A stretch of DNA of 46,454 nucleotides from Candidatus Rokuibacteriota bacterium (GTDB lineage: Bacteria; Methylomirabilota; Methylomirabilia; Rokubacteriales; CSP1-6), in contig VGLJ01000038.1 of assembly GCA_016866775.1 (NCBI GenBank), forward strand, positions 1 through 46,454, in the 5' to 3' direction. Numbering within the stretch: position 1 is the first letter of the stretch; the number at the start of each line of letters is the position of its first letter. The notes beneath the pieces were generated by a model. The model worked only from the letters and a program-made list of their open reading frames with translations, searched no databases and was not told the DNA's origin. This document shows, piece after piece, positions 1,348 to 10,847 of the stretch. Both the position numbers and the translations under genes were made by a program.

Positions 1348-2431
1348 TAGCGAAAGGGATGTAGTACGCCCGGTCGCCGAGCTCGTCGACGGCGGCCCAG
1401 AAGGTCGGGCTCCCCGCCTTGCCCGGCTGCTCGAGCTCCCACGTCTGCCGCCGATAGCTCCAGCTCTCCGGGTGCAGGCGCCGCGCTTCGGCGAGATACG
1501 GCAGCGCCGCGTCCCGATGTCCGGCGGCGTGCAGGAACTGGCCGAGGCGGAAATTCGCCGCGGCGAGCACGTGCTCGTCGGTGACGACGGGTGAGCGGCG
1601 GCGCGCCTCGTCCGGCGGCAGCGCGTACGCGCTCGCCTCGCCCGTCAGGACCCAGTCGCGCAGGGCATCGAAGTACTCCGTGCGCAGGCGCTGCCGCTCG
1701 GCGAGCCCTTCGGCGCTCATCTGCTTGGTGGGGCGATCGAGGTGCGTGCGGAACGAGTCGCTCGAGCCCGCGGTCTCCGACGGCCGCACCACACGGCCCT
1801 CCTCGTCGATCCACACCGCGTTCGGCACGTTCACCATGCCGTACAGCTCGGCGACGACATGGCGCTCGTCGATGAAGCAGGGATAGGTCGGCTTCGCGGC
1901 GTCGATCCACGGCCGCGTCGTGCGCGCCCCGCCGCTATCGAGCGCGACGGAGACGACCATGAGCCCGCGATCCTTCAGCTCGTCGTACACGCCCTGCCAC
2001 ACGGGCAGGTCGAGCCGGCAGCCTCACCACGAGGCCCACGAGACGAGGAAGACTTTCTTGCCGCGGTACTCGGAGAGCGCGTGCGGACGTCCGTCGAGAT
2101 CCGGGAGCGTGAAGTCCGGCGCCTCGAGCGATTGCAGCGCCGCGCGCCGCGCGGGTGCCGCGTCCGCGAGGGCCCAGACGCCGTGCGCCTCGTCGCGGAC
2201 CACGGGATGCTCGAGCAGGTCGGCGAACGCCGACAGGTTCACGCGCTGGCCGTCGACGATCCCGCGGCCCGGAGGAATCCGCACGCAGCGATCCGCCTGG
2301 CAGAAGCCTTCCGGCTTCAGCTCCCACCCGGTGGCGGCGGCGAAGTCGTGCGCCGACAGCCACAGATTCCGGCCCTCGGGCGCCGCCGCCGCCCGATGCG
2401 GCGGCCGGGTGCCGTAGAGCAGCGTGATCAT
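1295..2431 (-). CDS. Thioredoxin/TlpA-like selenoprotein with in-frame UGA (Sec136)
   Basis: One gene of 378 residues if the TGA at 2026-2024 is read as selenocysteine; read as a stop, it splits into two fragments in the same frame. Residues 1-100 are an N-terminal domain with a conserved-looking Trp/Cys section (ATGWELKPEGFC). The redoxin domain starts near APDFTLPDLDG and reaches FLVSWASW-U-GCRLDLPVW, where U takes the place of the first Cys of a TlpA/ResA-type active site, with a Cys two residues later. The domain continues through VVSVALD and the cis-Pro loop NVPNAVWID, then a helical tail with TPR-like features. A hairpin of bacterial SECIS geometry follows the TGA. The ATG overlaps the thiolase stop (ATGA), so translation is coupled. 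The last 16 or so codons lie in the repeat element. A nonsense mutation is the alternative. Confidence 0.85.
1993..2026 (-). promoter_or_regulatory. SECIS-like hairpin after the UGA of the thioredoxin-like gene
   Basis: Counting from the base after the TGA (2024-2026), bases +15 to +20 (CCTGCC) pair perfectly with +26 to +31 (GGCAGG) around a five-base loop CGTGT. Bacterial SECIS elements bound by SelB are short stems within the coding region, with the apical loop roughly 16-37 bases after the UGA and a G among the first two loop bases. This hairpin meets both criteria (loop at +21, G second). The six-bp stem alone is weak evidence in GC-rich DNA; its position is the stronger point. Confidence 0.6.
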
Positions 2432-3573
2432 GTTTCGTTCGACAGCAGCAGCGTGCCCGCGGCCGAGAGCATGCCGCCCATGCCGTTGACGAGCGAGACC
2501 TTCACGTTCGGCACCTGGCGCGGGCCGCACTCGCCGCGGAGCTGACGCGTCGCCTCGAGGATCGGGAAGATGCCGTACATCCCGGTGTGCGTGTACGACA
2601 GGCCGCCGCCGTTGGTGTTGATCGGCAGCGTGCCGCCGGGTGTGGAGCGGCCGTCCTGGAAGAAGTGCACGCCCTCACCGGGCTTCGCCAGGCCGAGCGA
2701 CTCGAGCATGATCGGCGGGCCGGACGTGAACGCGTCGTAGAGCATGATGTGGTTGACGTCGCGGTGACTCAGCCCCGCCATCGCGAACGCGCGCTCGCCG
2801 GAGATCCGCGTGGCCTCGCTGAAGGTGAGCTTCTTCATCTGCGTGACGCTGACGTGCTCCGTCCCCTCGCCCGTCCCCCGCACCCACACCGGCTTCTTCG
2901 CGCAGTCGCGCGCGCGATCGGGCCGAGTGAGCACCACGGCGCCGCCGCCGTCGGTGACGAGGCAGATGTTCAGCAGCGTGAACGGATAGATCACCGGCCG
3001 GGCGCTCAACACGTCCTGCACGGTGATGGGCTTCTTGAACATCGCCTTCGGATGCAGCGCCGCCCACTGCCGCGTGGAGACGGCGACCTGCGCCCACTGC
3101 TCGAGCGCGGTGCCGTACTCGTGCATGTGGCGCGTGGTGATGAGCGCGAACTGGGTGGGCGCGGCGCCGTAGCCGTACGGGATCTCGTACTGCCCGGTGA
3201 GCGCGGTGTCGCGCGCGCGCGTGACGCCGACCTGCGATCGCCCGCTCTCGCCGTGCGAGATCACCGCGACGTTGCAGAGGCCGTGGTGCAGCGCCGCCAC
3301 CGCGTGCTCGACCATGATGATGAACGAGGTGCCGCCGACACTCGTGCCGTCCACGTAGCGCGGCGTGACGCCGAGCGCCTCGCCGAGCAGGGCCGGCGAA
3401 TGCTGGCCCGCGGTGAAGATGCCGTCGACGTCGCCGACCTTGAGGCCCGCGTCGCGCACGGCGTTGGTGATCGCTTCGAGATGCAGCGAGAGCTGGCTCT
3501 TGCCGGGGAGCACGCCGATCTCGTCGCTCTCGTCGACGCCGACGATGCAGGCCGCGTTCCTGAGCTCGTTCAT
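2428..3573 (-). CDS. Thiolase-fold protein (SCP2/Ltp2-like, probable acyl-CoA thiolase or aldolase)
   Basis: A 381-residue thiolase-superfamily protein of the lipid-transfer/SCP2-thiolase branch. It has the N-terminal beta-alpha fold (ACIVGVDESDEIG), an SVGGTSFIIMVEH stretch where classical thiolases carry the nucleophilic Cys, LVTDGGGAVVL, the MLYDAFTSGPP loop, and the C-terminal NTNGGGLSYTHTG and NGMGG motifs. The usual Cys is absent. This resembles Ltp2, which works with a DUF35 protein as a retro-aldolase on steroid side-chain CoA esters; that function is an inference. The DUF35 partner is immediately upstream with an ATGA overlap, and the selenoprotein follows with another ATGA overlap. 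A second such pair is at 9279-10847. Confidence 0.85.
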   Translation of the reverse strand: MNELRNAACIVGVDESDEIGVLPGKSQLSLHLEAITNAVRDAGLKVGDVDGIFTAGQHSPALLGEALGVTPRYVDGTSVGGTSFIIMVEHAVAALHHGLCNVAVISHGESGRSQVGVTRARDTALTGQYEIPYGYGAAPTQFALITTRHMHEYGTALEQWAQVAVSTRQWAALHPKAMFKKPITVQDVLSARPVIYPFTLLNICLVTDGGGAVVLTRPDRARDCAKKPVWVRGTGEGTEHVSVTQMKKLTFSEATRISGERAFAMAGLSHRDVNHIMLYDAFTSGPPIMLESLGLAKPGEGVHFFQDGRSTPGGTLPINTNGGGLSYTHTGMYGIFPILEATRQLRGECGPRQVPNVKVSLVNGMGGMLSAAGTLLLSNET

Positions 3574-3998
3574 CGTGCGGCCCCCTTCGCCGGCTGGAAC
3601 AGCGGGACCGTGTGGTCGTCGGTGAGCTTGTGGAACACGACCTCCACCGGCATGTCGCACGCGATCGACTTCGGATCCGGCGTGACGTTGACGAGGTTCG
3701 ACATCATCCGCGGCCCTTCCTCGAGCTCGACCATCGCGAGCACGTAGGGCGGCGGCATCTTGAACGCCTTGTTGAACGACTGGTGCCCGATCCCGAACGC
3801 GTGCAGGCGGCCCTTGCCGCTGGCCTGGATCCAGCCGATCTTGCGCGAGCGACAGCGCGGGCAGAGCACGCGCGGATAGAAGAACGTGTGCTGGCAGTCG
3901 CCGCACCGCGGCAGCATGAGCTTTCCTTCCTTCAATCCGTCCCAGTAGGGCTTCGCTTCGGGCGTGATCGGCTGGGGCAGCGGACGATCGGGTTCCAT
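3570..3998 (-). CDS. DUF35 OB-fold protein with zinc ribbon, partner of thiolase-fold protein
   Basis: A 142-residue protein. The N-terminal helix contains the family-typical PYWDGLKEGKLMLPRC, followed by a rubredoxin-like zinc ribbon with two Cys pairs (CGDC and CPRC) and an OB-fold domain (residues about 60-125) ending in VEVVFHKL. DUF35 proteins bind acyl-CoA and pair obligately with thiolase-fold enzymes, as ChsH2 does with Ltp2. The ATG at 3998 follows an AGGAG ribosome site. It is the first gene of the minus-strand operon and is divergent from the small secreted protein gene at 4138. The two starts are about 140 bases apart and presumably contain both promoters. Confidence 0.88.
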   Translation of the reverse strand: MEPDRPLPQPITPEAKPYWDGLKEGKLMLPRCGDCQHTFFYPRVLCPRCRSRKIGWIQASGKGRLHAFGIGHQSFNKAFKMPPPYVLAMVELEEGPRMMSNLVNVTPDPKSIACDMPVEVVFHKLTDDHTVPLFQPAKGAAR

Positions 3999-4078
3999 GA
4001 GGCTCCTTTCCGTGCGCCCACGCATGGTAGGGCCAGTCAGGGCCGCCGTCGAGTCCCCGCGAGCCGGAGCGCGTTCGG

Positions 4079-5928: not shown

Positions 5929-6408
5929 ATGCGCGAGCTGATTCCGATCGCAGAACAGATTGCCGCCAGGTTGAAGGAGCGCAGGGAAACGGTCGCCGTC
6001 TCGGAGTCGTCCACGGGCGGCCTGATCTCCGCGGTGCTGCTCGCGGTGCCCGGAGCGTCGGCCTACTTCCTCGGCGGCGGCGTCATCTACACGCAGGCCG
6101 CCCGGCGGGGCATCCTCCAGGTCCCCGACGAGGCGGTGAAAGGGATCCGCTCGAGCAGCGAGCCCTACGCGCTCGTCAAGGCGCGCACGATCCGCGAGCG
6201 CGTGGGCGCGACGTGGGGGATCGGAGAGACGGGGGCCACGGGACCGACGGGCAACCGCTACGGCGACAAGCCGGGGCACTCGTGCCTGGCTGTCGTCGGC
6301 CCGAGCGAGAAGGTCATCACGCTCGAGACGGGCGACAGCGACCGCGTGACGAACATGGAGGTCTTCACGAAGGCCGCGCTGGAGCTATTCGCCTCCGCGC
6401 TTCGTTAA
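5929..6408 (+). CDS. pncC: CinA C-terminal domain protein (nicotinamide-nucleotide amidohydrolase type)
   Basis: A 159-residue stand-alone CinA C-terminal domain. The VAVSESSTGGLISAVLLAVPGAS segment has the catalytic Ser/Thr region of PncC, which deamidates nicotinamide mononucleotide to nicotinate mononucleotide in pyridine nucleotide salvage. GETGATGPTGNRYGDKPG is the second conserved segment. The length matches single-domain PncC rather than full CinA. The 3' end overlaps the convergent UGSC gene by 24 bases. Some family members have diverged, so the exact substrate is inferred. Confidence 0.8.
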   Translation: MRELIPIAEQIAARLKERRETVAVSESSTGGLISAVLLAVPGASAYFLGGGVIYTQAARRGILQVPDEAVKGIRSSSEPYALVKARTIRERVGATWGIGETGATGPTGNRYGDKPGHSCLAVVGPSEKVITLETGDSDRVTNMEVFTKAALELFASALR

Positions 6409-6918
6409 GAGCTCCACGATCCGATCGATCACGGCCTCCGCCTTCGCGCGGAGGTCGTCATCGCTGGCGTTCGCGATCGGGTGCGGGATGACCACGTAGG
6501 GATACTCCGGCAGCCCGTTGAGCTCGGCGACCGCGCGCGCCGTCGGCACGAAGCGGTCGGTCATCACGGCCACGGCGGGAATCCCGCGGCGCTCGGCGGC
6601 GATGGCGTCGTGCATACTGCACGACGAGCAGCTCCCTCAGTCGCCGATGCCGGACACGACGGCGTCGGCGGCGCTCAGCTCCCCGATGATCGCGTCGGGC
6701 GCCGGCCGGCTCGAATCGCCCTTGCGGCGGCGGACGACCTCGCGCACCCCGTGGCGTGTCTTGAGGATCTCCGCGACGTAGTCGTAGAACTTCGCGGTCC
6801 CGATTTTCGCGTTGTCGAGCAGGCCCACCACGGCCCCGTCGAGCTTGCCCAGCGGCGGGGCCATCACGAGCGGCTCACCCTCGGCGAACTGGCGGGGATC
6901 GCGCACTCTCAGCGTCAT
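6385..6918 (-). CDS. UGSC-family selenoprotein with in-frame UGA (Sec94)
   Basis: A 177-residue protein if the TGA at 6639-6637 is read as selenocysteine; otherwise two in-frame fragments result. Around it the frame reads VVSGIGD-U-GSCSSCS-MHDAI, which contains the U-G-S-C motif that names a recognised bacterial selenoprotein family. The rest is a small alpha/beta protein: KLDGAVVGLLDNAK near the N-terminus, IAAERRGIPAVAVMTDRF after the motif and PYVVIPHPI towards the end. A perfect 9-bp hairpin with a GTA loop follows the TGA at SECIS distance. The ATG is two bases after the stop of the upstream conserved gene. Biochemical function is not known; a redox role is likely from the Sec/Cys centre. 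It overlaps pncC tail-to-tail. Confidence 0.9.
6606..6639 (-). promoter_or_regulatory. SECIS-like hairpin after the UGA of the UGSC gene
   Basis: Bases +11 to +19 after the TGA (CGTCGTGCA) pair perfectly with +23 to +31 (TGCACGACG), leaving a GTA loop at +20 to +22. The loop starts with G and lies within the 16-37 base window typical of bacterial SECIS elements. A perfect 9-bp stem at this exact place is strong support for UGA recoding. Confidence 0.8.
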
Positions 6919-6920
6919 CG

Positions 6921-7964
6921 TCAGGCTCCAATCTGCGCGGTCTGCGCCTGGCCCTTCGTGCCGTACCACGGCGGGATGACGGCGCCGAATCCACCGGCGG
7001 GTCCGCCCGCCGCCACGACGAGCAGATCGTCAGGCACACGGAGCGCCGTGTACACGCGCTCCTCGTCGCTGCGCCCCGCCACCGCCGCCTTGCCCACCGT
7101 GCGCCACTCGCCGCGCTTCACGCGCGCGCGCTCGTGAACGTACTCGCGGATGTCCTTCTTGCCGAAGCCCGCGGCGGCGAAGATCTGGCGGTGCTGCTTC
7201 GGGACCACGAGGAAGTAGTTCCCCGGCCAGATCGAGTACGTGAGCATGTTGGCGCGAATCACGGCGGCGTAGGTGTCGAGGATCTCCCGCGGATCGTGCG
7301 TCCACTCGTTCATGAGCTGGTGCGGCGCGCCGCAGCCGAGCACCGTCACCGCGGAGGCTCCCGCGGGCACGCCGCGCTCGGCGGCGAGCGACGGCCACGG
7401 GCTGTCCTCTTCGTCCTCGGCCACGCAGTAGGAGAACTTGCCGGGGTGGCCGAGCGTCGAGCGATCGAGCTGACCGGGCACTCCGCCGAGCACGTTGATG
7501 ATGATGAGGCGCACCGTGCGCCCGATCGTCGCGTTGGCGCGGCTCCCGTTGGCGAGCACGTTGTGCGTCGCGTTCATCGCCAGCGCGGTCCGGATCGGCC
7601 CGTTCACCACGACGAACGGCGCGGCGCCGCCGGTGCTCGCGTTGCTCCCGTGCAGGCTGTACTCCGGACGGCACATCGCCTGGACGATGGCGACGACCAC
7701 CGGCATGTACTCCGGCAGGCACCCCGCCATGACCGCGGCGATCGCGACCTTCTCCGCGGTGATCCGCCGTCGCCGCACGGGCTCGGTGCCGACGAGCGCG
7801 CCCGGCTCGAGCCGCGCCACCGCGAGGAAGCGCCGGACGCGCTCGTCGGTGGGCGCCACGATCGGCAGCCCGTCCGTCCAGCCGTTCTTCTGGAACAGCT
7901 CGTTCGCCTCGAAGTCGTCGGCGACGTCGTAGGTCCTCGACTGCAGGCCGTCGCTCGTCATCAC
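6921..7964 (-). CDS. Conserved protein of unknown function upstream of the UGSC selenoprotein
   Basis: A 347-residue protein without a motif I can assign to an enzyme. It opens with LFQKNGWTDGLPIVAPT, then MAGCLPEYMPVVVAIVQAM, CRPEYSLHGSNASTGGAAPFVVVNGP and a glycine-rich LIIINVLGGVPG, and ends near AAGGPAGGFGAVIPPW. Several Cys (in MAGCLPEYM, MCRPEYS, FSYCVAE, VLGCGAPH) lie in well-structured contexts and could be functional. There is no signal peptide and no clear membrane segment. It is only two bases from the UGSC start, so the two are almost surely co-transcribed and may form a complex or pathway. Its 5' end is 38 bases from the divergent exonuclease III gene. Confidence 0.8.
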   Translation of the reverse strand: MMTSDGLQSRTYDVADDFEANELFQKNGWTDGLPIVAPTDERVRRFLAVARLEPGALVGTEPVRRRRITAEKVAIAAVMAGCLPEYMPVVVAIVQAMCRPEYSLHGSNASTGGAAPFVVVNGPIRTALAMNATHNVLANGSRANATIGRTVRLIIINVLGGVPGQLDRSTLGHPGKFSYCVAEDEEDSPWPSLAAERGVPAGASAVTVLGCGAPHQLMNEWTHDPREILDTYAAVIRANMLTYSIWPGNYFLVVPKQHRQIFAAAGFGKKDIREYVHERARVKRGEWRTVGKAAVAGRSDEERVYTALRVPDDLLVVAAGGPAGGFGAVIPPWYGTKGQAQTAQIGA

Positions 7965-9117: not shown

Positions 9118-9244
9118 TACCGAAGCTCGGTAAATCTCCGCCGACCCGTGGTAGTTCGGGCCGACGCCGTGGCGCACGGCGGATCCGTCCGAGCCGAAGC
9201 TCGCTCGCCGGATCTCCAGCGCACCATCCGCGCCCTGTTATGAT
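9118..9244 (+). promoter_or_regulatory. Promoter region of the second thiolase-fold/DUF35 operon
   Basis: The 233-base gap 9046-9278 has no gene. It holds an inverted repeat TACCGA-AGC-TCGGTA (9118-9132), a possible operator, and a -10-like TATGAT at 9239-9244. The latter would give a leader of roughly 30 bases carrying the GAGGAGG ribosome site before the ATG at 9279. No clear -35 box is visible. Confidence 0.4.
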
Positions 9245-9278
9245 GCGCCTCGCCATCGAAGAGGAGGCGTGCGCGCAC

Positions 9279-10451
9279 ATGACGATCAACGGCAAGGCGT
9301 ACATCGCGGGGGTCTACGAGCACCCCACCCGGAAAGCGGACACGATCTCCCTCGCGCAGCTCCACGCGGACGTCGCGAAGGGCGCGCTCGAGGACGCGGG
9401 ACTCACCAAGAACGACGTCGACGGCTACTTCTGCGCCGGCGACGCGCCCGGGCTCGGGCCGCTCTCGATGGCCGAGTACATGGGCCTCGGCAAGCTGCGG
9501 CACGTCGACACGACCGAGACCGGCGGGTCGTCCTACGTGATCCACGTCGGCCACGCCGCGCAGGCGATCGCCCTGGGCAAGTGCACCGTCGCGCTGATCA
9601 CGCTCGCCGGGCGGCCGCGCGCGGAGGGCATGGCGACGGGGACGGCGCCGCGCAACTACGGGTCGGCGGCCCCGGACGTCCAGTTCGAGTACCCGTTCGG
9701 GCCGACGGTCGTGAACCAGTACGCGATGTGCGCCATGCGCCACATGCACGAGTTCGGCACCACGAGCGAGCAGCTCGCGTGGATCAAGGTCGCCGCCTCG
9801 CACCACGCCCAGCACAACCCGCACGCGCTGCTGCGCGACGTCGTCACCGTCGAGGACGTCGTGAAGTCCCCGATCATCGCGGATCCCCTCCATCGCCTCG
9901 ACTGCTGCGTGATCACCGACGGCGGCGGCGCCGTGGTGGTCGTCCATCCCGACGTGGCGAAGCGCCTCACGCGCCCGCGCGTGAAGATCCGGGGCGCCGG
10001 CGAGGCGACCAAGCTGCAGATGGGCGGCAGGATCGACCTGACCTACAGCGGGGCGCGATGGTCCGGGCCGATCGCGTTCGAGGAGGCGAAGGTGACGCCC
10101 GCCGACATCAAGTACGTGTCGATCTACGACAGCTTCACGATCACGGTGCTGATGACCCTCGAGGACCTCGGCTTCTGCGCGAAGGGCCAGGGCGGAAAGT
10201 TCGTGTCCGACGGCAACCTGATCTCGGGGACGGGCAAGCTCCCCTTCAACACCGACGGCGGCGGCCTCTGCAACAACCATCCGGCGAACCGCGGCGGCAT
10301 GACCAAGGTCGTCGAGGCCGTGCGGCAGCTTCGGGGCGAAGCGCATCCGAAGGTTCAGGTGAAGAGCTGCGACCTCGCGCTCGCGCACGGCACGGGCGGG
10401 TCGCTCGGGACCCGTCACGGCAGCGCGACCGTCATCCTGGAGCGGGAGTAA
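9279..10451 (+). CDS. Thiolase-fold protein (SCP2/Ltp2-like), second copy
   Basis: A 390-residue thiolase-superfamily protein of the same branch as the one at 2428-3573. Corresponding landmarks are AYIAGVYEHPTRKAD, DVDGYFCAGDAPG, TTETGGSSYVIHVGHAAQAI (no nucleophilic Cys), CVITDGGGAVVV, SIYDSFTITVL and NTDGGGLCNNHPANRGG. In this class the DUF35 partner and the lack of the active-site Cys point to aldolase or other CoA-ester chemistry. That is inferred from the Ltp2-ChsH2 complex. The start at 9279 is chosen for MTINGKAYIAG and the GAGGAGG site; an upstream ATG at 9240 would add 13 atypical residues. The DUF35 partner follows after three bases. Confidence 0.85.
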   Translation: MTINGKAYIAGVYEHPTRKADTISLAQLHADVAKGALEDAGLTKNDVDGYFCAGDAPGLGPLSMAEYMGLGKLRHVDTTETGGSSYVIHVGHAAQAIALGKCTVALITLAGRPRAEGMATGTAPRNYGSAAPDVQFEYPFGPTVVNQYAMCAMRHMHEFGTTSEQLAWIKVAASHHAQHNPHALLRDVVTVEDVVKSPIIADPLHRLDCCVITDGGGAVVVVHPDVAKRLTRPRVKIRGAGEATKLQMGGRIDLTYSGARWSGPIAFEEAKVTPADIKYVSIYDSFTITVLMTLEDLGFCAKGQGGKFVSDGNLISGTGKLPFNTDGGGLCNNHPANRGGMTKVVEAVRQLRGEAHPKVQVKSCDLALAHGTGGSLGTRHGSATVILERE

Positions 10452-10454
10452 GCC

Positions 10455-10847
10455 ATGGCGACGGCACAGCGCACGATCCCCGCACCGCAGCCGAGCCCCG
10501 AGACGAAAGCGTTCTGGGACGGCGCCGCCGAAGGCAAGCTCTTGCTGAAGAAATGCCGCGCCTGCAGCCAGGTCCACTACTATCCGCGGCCGCTCTGCCC
10601 GTTCTGCGGCAGCGACGCCACCGAGTGGCAGCCCGCCGCGGGCACCGGCACGCTCTACTCGTACAGCGTCATGCGCCGCGCGGAGGTGCCGTACGCCATC
10701 GCCTACGTGACGCTCGACGAGGGCGTGACGATGATGACCAACCTCGTGAACTGCGACTTCGACCGCCTGCGCATCGGGCAGAAGGTCCGCGTCGTCTTCT
10801 CCCCGACTGACGGCGGCGCGCCGGTCCCCACCTTCACCCCCGCGTGA
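10455..10847 (+). CDS. DUF35 OB-fold protein with zinc ribbon
   Basis: A 130-residue partner of the preceding thiolase-fold protein. It has the FWDGAAEGKLLLKKC helix, a zinc ribbon with CRAC and CPFC pairs, and an OB-fold from GTGTLYSYSVMRR to VRVVFSP. It parallels the gene at 3570-3998 in layout and length. It is sandwiched between the thiolase-fold gene (three-base gap) and a dioxygenase gene whose GTG start overlaps its stop (GTGA), so the three form one translationally coupled operon probably acting on one CoA-linked or organic-acid pathway. Confidence 0.88.
   Translation: MATAQRTIPAPQPSPETKAFWDGAAEGKLLLKKCRACSQVHYYPRPLCPFCGSDATEWQPAAGTGTLYSYSVMRRAEVPYAIAYVTLDEGVTMMTNLVNCDFDRLRIGQKVRVVFSPTDGGAPVPTFTPA

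Follow-up and report, generated by a model that had tools for sequence, protein, structure and literature searches.

Does the TGA at positions 6637–6639 of this DNA end a minus-strand gene, or does it encode selenocysteine (Sec) within one, and if it encodes Sec, what does the selenoprotein do? The window analysed here is the whole 46,454-nt stretch of contig VGLJ01000038.1 from a Candidatus Rokuibacteriota bacterium (GCA_016866775.1). An earlier reading made from the letters alone (the sequence-only reading) had proposed that a UGSC selenoprotein is encoded at this place.

A UGSC-family gene with one in-frame TGA

The frame running from 6918 to 6385 on the minus strand, with its ATG at 6918–6916, is open except for the TGA at 6637–6639. 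Read with this one codon recoded as Sec, it encodes a UGSC-family selenoprotein of 177 aa, and the translation around residue 94 is VVSGIGD-U-G-S-C-SSC. The sequence-only reading gave no strand; the feature belongs to the minus one, where both the two same-frame fragments divided only by a TGA and the residues U-G-S-C that it had described are borne out. Its expectation that a standard annotation would split the gene also holds, the standard code yielding one fragment at 6637–6969 (110 aa) and another at 6385–6615 (76 aa).

Two nucleotides ahead of the UGSC start, a second minus-strand gene (6921–7964, 347 aa, start at GTG 7964 or ATG 7961), which we call the partner gene, ends in an ordinary TGA at 6923–6921. 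The GGAG ribosome-binding sequence of the UGSC gene, read from the sequence at 6926–6929 on the same strand, falls within the 3′ end of the partner gene, and translational coupling of the UGSC gene to its partner is probable. On the opposite side, a CinA-domain gene (PF02464; 5929–6408, plus strand) is convergent with the UGSC gene, and the 3′ ends of the two overlap by 24 bp.

The window protein matches the curated UGSC models over nearly its full length and passes both cut-offs, with 146.9 bits against NF041046 (NCBIfam UGSC_fam, cut-off 125) and 182.8 bits against PF24696 (Pfam UGSC, cut-off 25). Its assignment to a known UGSC-motif selenoprotein family is thus correct. Knowledge of this family goes back at least to 2008, its UGSC-containing protein belonging to the Global Ocean Sampling (GOS) selenoproteome (PMC2398784), and the window gene is an ordinary member and no discovery. 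It shares with the family the Sec in UGSC, at the conserved UxxC column (U94/C97), and a SECIS element just downstream of the UGA; some family members carry an additional domain as a fusion. A second Cys is present in the window copy (UGSCSSC, a UxxCxxC motif), as in a widespread subtype; UxxC is invariant across the members compared, and the third Cys is missing from many. What we add to the family is an obligate partner, a multiplication of Sec-only copies in one lineage, and a Sec site like that of GrdB.

Close orthologues of the window pair (71–76%) occur in only 4 of the 56 other genomes of its own taxonomic family, and relatives in Betaproteobacteria are equally close (73%), so the pair is an accessory and possibly mobile copy. 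For another UGSC pair of the host genome (L032), the closest named relatives are Candidatus Rokubacteria, with 75% partner identity.

The UGA is conserved in a genome equipped to decode it

The host genome (5.13 Mb in 159 contigs, 97.5% complete) was searched for selA, selB, selC and selD, and all four were found. The tRNA-Sec gene (70 bits, anticodon TCA), selA (592 bits) and selB (381 bits) sit together on one contig (C43). The selD gene lies on another (C31; 336 bits) and has its own in-frame TGA, a Sec codon in the active-site loop. The host's selenoproteins number about a dozen, counting those of eight UGSC genes, SelD and a grd-like cluster.

Among 111 related genes, the Sec column is TGA in 110 and TGC in one, so that aligned homologues have Sec or, in a single case, Cys. 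The Cys form (L119:4080–4605), from a Geodermatophilaceae assembly, reads C-A-G-C; in its hairpin just 5 of the 9 pairs survive, and the loop no longer has the GU. UAG as the Sec codon has been reported from Geodermatophilaceae. In the host, exactly one TGA occurs in each of the eight UGSC genes. At class level, 72/95 genomes contain the family; within the host's own taxonomic family all 57 genomes do, with 2 to 12 Sec copies apiece, and the matches listed at both levels all have one TGA.

No internal stop was found in 108 partner sequences, and the window partner itself ends in TGA; UGA therefore serves here as both stop and Sec codon, and it is the hairpin that distinguishes the two.

A SECIS hairpin directly 3′ of the UGA

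The hairpin (6606–6626, minus strand) has a stem of nine perfect pairs, 6626–6618 with 6614–6606, closed by the loop GUA at 6617–6615. The sequence-only reading had the stem and the GTA loop right but placed the start of the stem 20 bases after the TGA; it is the loop that begins about 20 nt past the TGA, while the stem begins at 11 nt, after a 10-nt spacer. Its folding energy is unremarkable (z = −0.85 against dinucleotide shuffles) and nine pairs also arise in 3.9% of synonymous recodings of the window gene. Taken alone, the window hairpin is weak evidence.

The comparative data put the hairpin far beyond chance. Across the 110 Sec genes, 8.22 of the 9 stem positions pair on average, as compared to 5.27 ± 0.15 in synonymous recodings (maximum 5.68 in 200), and GU stands at the apex of the loop in 109/110, within a conserved AGUNU apex. 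Over 64 distinct sequences the covariation score is 0.235 (0.093 ± 0.011 expected), a value that neither any of 500 shuffles nor any slid register attained; six of the nine stem pairs exhibit compensatory changes and 90.5% of cells are paired. The RNA structure after the TGA is thus conserved, with compensatory changes, above the level of synonymous recoding, and the hairpin stands directly 3′ of the UGA with a conserved apical GU, as in a bacterial SECIS element. SelB with Sec-tRNA(Sec) would recognise the hairpin at 6606–6626 and decode the UGA at 6637–6639 as Sec.

The codon, the hairpin, the conservation and the machinery together indicate that Sec is almost certainly inserted at U94; the TGA/Cys column, the covarying hairpin and the complete sel gene set support what the sequence-only reading had suggested. 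That the TGA is instead a genuine stop (of a pseudogene, an assembly error or the first of two small genes), with no Sec inserted, is extremely improbable. The assembly is fragmented, the frame is split under the standard code and the hairpin by itself is unexceptional, but a stop reading would have to accommodate the TGA that 110 of 111 independent relatives, drawn from many phyla, and all eight paralogues have in the same column, together with the Cys homologue, the covariation and the machinery, and the ATG needed to start the second fragment (6615) falls within the hairpin. Still more remote is a reading in which the host translates TGA as tryptophan or some other ordinary amino acid, which has the open frame in its favour and nothing more, and against it the Sec machinery, partners that never contain an internal TGA and a partner gene that stops at TGA 6923–6921 with the UGSC start 2 nt further. 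Both readings were rejected on the conservation, the hairpin, the machinery and the TGA stop in the same operon.

A one-to-one partner

Partner homologues adjoin all eight UGSC genes of the host genome, in either order, and the genome has exactly eight of them, giving a 1:1 correspondence. A search of named genomes with the partner found UGSC nearby on the same strand in 72/80 loci, mostly within 200 nt, a frequency that describes the 80 loci most similar to the window's partner; three of the eight loci with no UGSC gene nearby run off their contig. The 80 loci come from Proteobacteria, Chloroflexi, Actinomycetota, Acidobacteriota, Rokubacteria, SAR324, a Bacillus and others. The 347-aa partner had no match in Pfam, NCBIfam or the PDB sequences, whether searched as a single protein, as a 62-member set or as a profile.

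One host gene (L038) is a natural fusion, a single chain of UGSC followed by the partner, with the motif U-S-T-C and about 25 orthologues in the class. Its structure model has a pTM of 0.86, and Foldseek found nothing for it at E ≤ 0.001. The GOS study described a UGSC fusion to a domain named 'Unknown_1' (PMC2398784), which is probably the partner domain. The fused genes (L038:5300–5347, orthologues L152–L175) lack the standard stem register and could use as SECIS another hairpin, whose apex is of the GGUC type. Judging from the genomic pairing, UGSC and its partner very probably act as a fixed physical complex.

The Sec site resembles that of GrdB and PrdB

When 58 UGSC members were scanned against NCBIfam, the only coherent group of matches besides UGSC itself was a set of weak ones of the GrdB/Prd type. 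The GrdB model TIGR01917 was matched by 21 of the 58 (best 2.2e-6), GrdF by 13, the selenoprotein-B subfamily by 11, PrdB by 7 (best 0.0094) and GrdH by 4. For the window protein, the GrdB, GrdF, GrdH and subfamily matches all fall on the Sec region, residues 84–159 corresponding to positions 337–406 of the GrdB model. This match reaches 19.9 bits, and the TIGR01917 cut-off is 602.2.

GrdB-like genes of the same class, when their TGA is read through, show the motifs UGTCNRC or UGSCHRC. Profile alignment with hhalign set UGSCSSC on UGTCNRC with a shared GIP (probability 80–88%, E 3e-6 to 1.5e-5 for one pair; at most 1.5% probability in eight shuffles). The same alignment was negative against the GrdB-like frames of the class that end at the Sec codon and turned positive after reading through the TGA, because this codon is the exact end point of those frames and of the Pfam GRDB model alike. 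Searches with this model (PF07355) consequently report no in-frame stop in genuine GrdB genes that contain Sec, and miss the C-terminal Sec domain. Small C-terminal PF07355 matches with neither a CxxC nor a UxxCxxC motif (L201–L210) were left out.

We consider it likely that the UGSC Sec site is akin to the C-terminal Sec domain of GrdB and PrdB, over a short segment of about 60–75 residues in which the UGxCxxC motif itself supplies much of the score. With the GrdB, GrdF and GrdH proteins of glycine, sarcosine and betaine reductase (TIGR01917, TIGR01918, NF040794, NF040795) the UGSC protein shares an alignable strand-UGxCxxC-helix-GIP segment in which the Sec and Cys columns coincide. It differs from them in scoring far under their cut-offs and in lacking the roughly 340-residue GrdB N-terminal part, which was found neither in UGSC, where only the Sec segment matched, nor in the partner (hhalign 0.2%), so that the partner is not equivalent by sequence. 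To D-proline reductase PrdB (TIGR04483) the likeness consists of the weak matches and of a small Sec subunit with a larger partner; the differences are a score under the PrdB cut-off and no PrdA-like partner detected. None of the Grd/Prd-type reductase models matched any of 62 partner members, and the reductase chemistry is therefore not carried over by the partner.

The host genome also has the grd-like cluster mentioned above (L221; G000:C11:40000–59000), which includes a GrdA with Sec (CYVU). In two GrdB-like genes of this cluster the frame stops at a TGA, beyond which comes a read-through of the UGT(S/C)xRC type. Two further loci (L184 and L186, past position 2535) carry a GrdB-like subtype, U-G-T-S-T-R-C, in which Ser replaces the resolving Cys of UxxC.

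Predicted fold and proposed chemistry

An AlphaFold2 model of the UGSC protein, built on the 58-member alignment, has a pLDDT of 92 and predicts a parallel alpha/beta domain of five strands and five helices in alternation. Sec94 follows the predicted strand 86–92 and precedes helix 95–110, a position from which Sec94, at the strand end, and Cys97, at the start of the next helix, would form a UxxC redox pair. Such a pair, with the Sec94 selenolate as nucleophile and Cys97 as the resolving residue, is probable.

UGSC would act in its complex with the partner protein, which is encoded upstream (7964 to 6921, minus strand), and the complex would reduce a small metabolite held by the partner, the paralogous pairs of one genome differing in substrate. 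This assignment as a selenium-dependent reductase with substrate-specific pairs is drawn by analogy from the distant kinship to the GrdB/PrdB Sec site, and we hold it tentatively. Neighbouring genes at the 80 loci are mainly LysR regulators, TctC receptors, MFS transporters, CoA-transferases, monooxygenases, glyoxalases, SDRs, amidohydrolases and GSTs; no conserved third gene dominates in a scan around these loci and no pathway is fixed by it. The neighbours suggest peripheral catabolism without naming a pathway.

A more specific chemistry, somewhat doubtful though possible, is that the protein acts as PrdB does: the selenolate would attack a substrate carbon to give a selenoether, resolved by Cys97, in a reductive cleavage of a C–N or C–X bond. 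The Sec-site kinship to GrdB, GrdF, GrdH and PrdB speaks for it, as do neighbours comprising catabolic regulators, TctC transport receptors, CoA-transferases, monooxygenases, glyoxalases and GSTs, and the many divergent paralogues per genome would suit substrate diversification; but the similar segment is short, the neighbouring genes are a mixed set and the partner shows no recognisable pyruvoyl-type subunit.

A general thiol oxidoreductase of the thioredoxin type, acting outside any substrate-specific reductase, is unlikely. UxxC, standard among redox selenoproteins, is common to thioredoxin-like selenoproteins and the window protein, and the UGSC protein appears in published lists under the Trx-like fold (PMC2398784; PMC13188914). 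The predicted model, with its high pLDDT, is instead a longer parallel alpha/beta domain. Foldseek against the PDB returned generic Rossmann/flavodoxin-like alpha/beta folds (TM about 0.4–0.5), with no thioredoxin among the matches listed, and a PDB sequence search with the UGSC protein gave no match. The model thus argues against an evidently thioredoxin-like fold, contrary to the literature, and on its alternating beta-alpha order and the listed PDB matches we set the thioredoxin fold aside, as far as a predicted model goes. Nor would a free oxidoreductase need a fixed 1:1 partner of 350 aa or up to 12 copies per genome.

Most likely, UGSC provides the redox-active subunit of a selenium-dependent reductase made up of two subunits. 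As a whole, the explanation that joins a UGSC selenoprotein, SECIS decoding, a redox pair, a partner complex and a reductase appears likely to us. Further reaching, and more speculative, is the idea that UGSC and its 347-aa partner may represent an unrecognised class of such reductases, related to GrdB/PrdB by the Sec domain only, with a partner of unrecognised fold, which soil members of this lineage would have multiplied into many substrate-specific copies per genome for small-molecule catabolism. The 1:1 partner and the GrdB/PrdB-like Sec site give the UGSC family a concrete pair and a chemistry to test, and the multiplication of UGSC genes (2 to 12 Sec copies in 57/57 genomes) would help to explain why this lineage retains selenium.

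At a distance, the module seems to be flanked by two pairs of thiolase-like and zinc-ribbon/OB-fold (ChsH2-type) genes, at about 2428–4000 on the minus strand and at 9240–10847 on the plus strand, the right-hand one of which was confirmed by Pfam.
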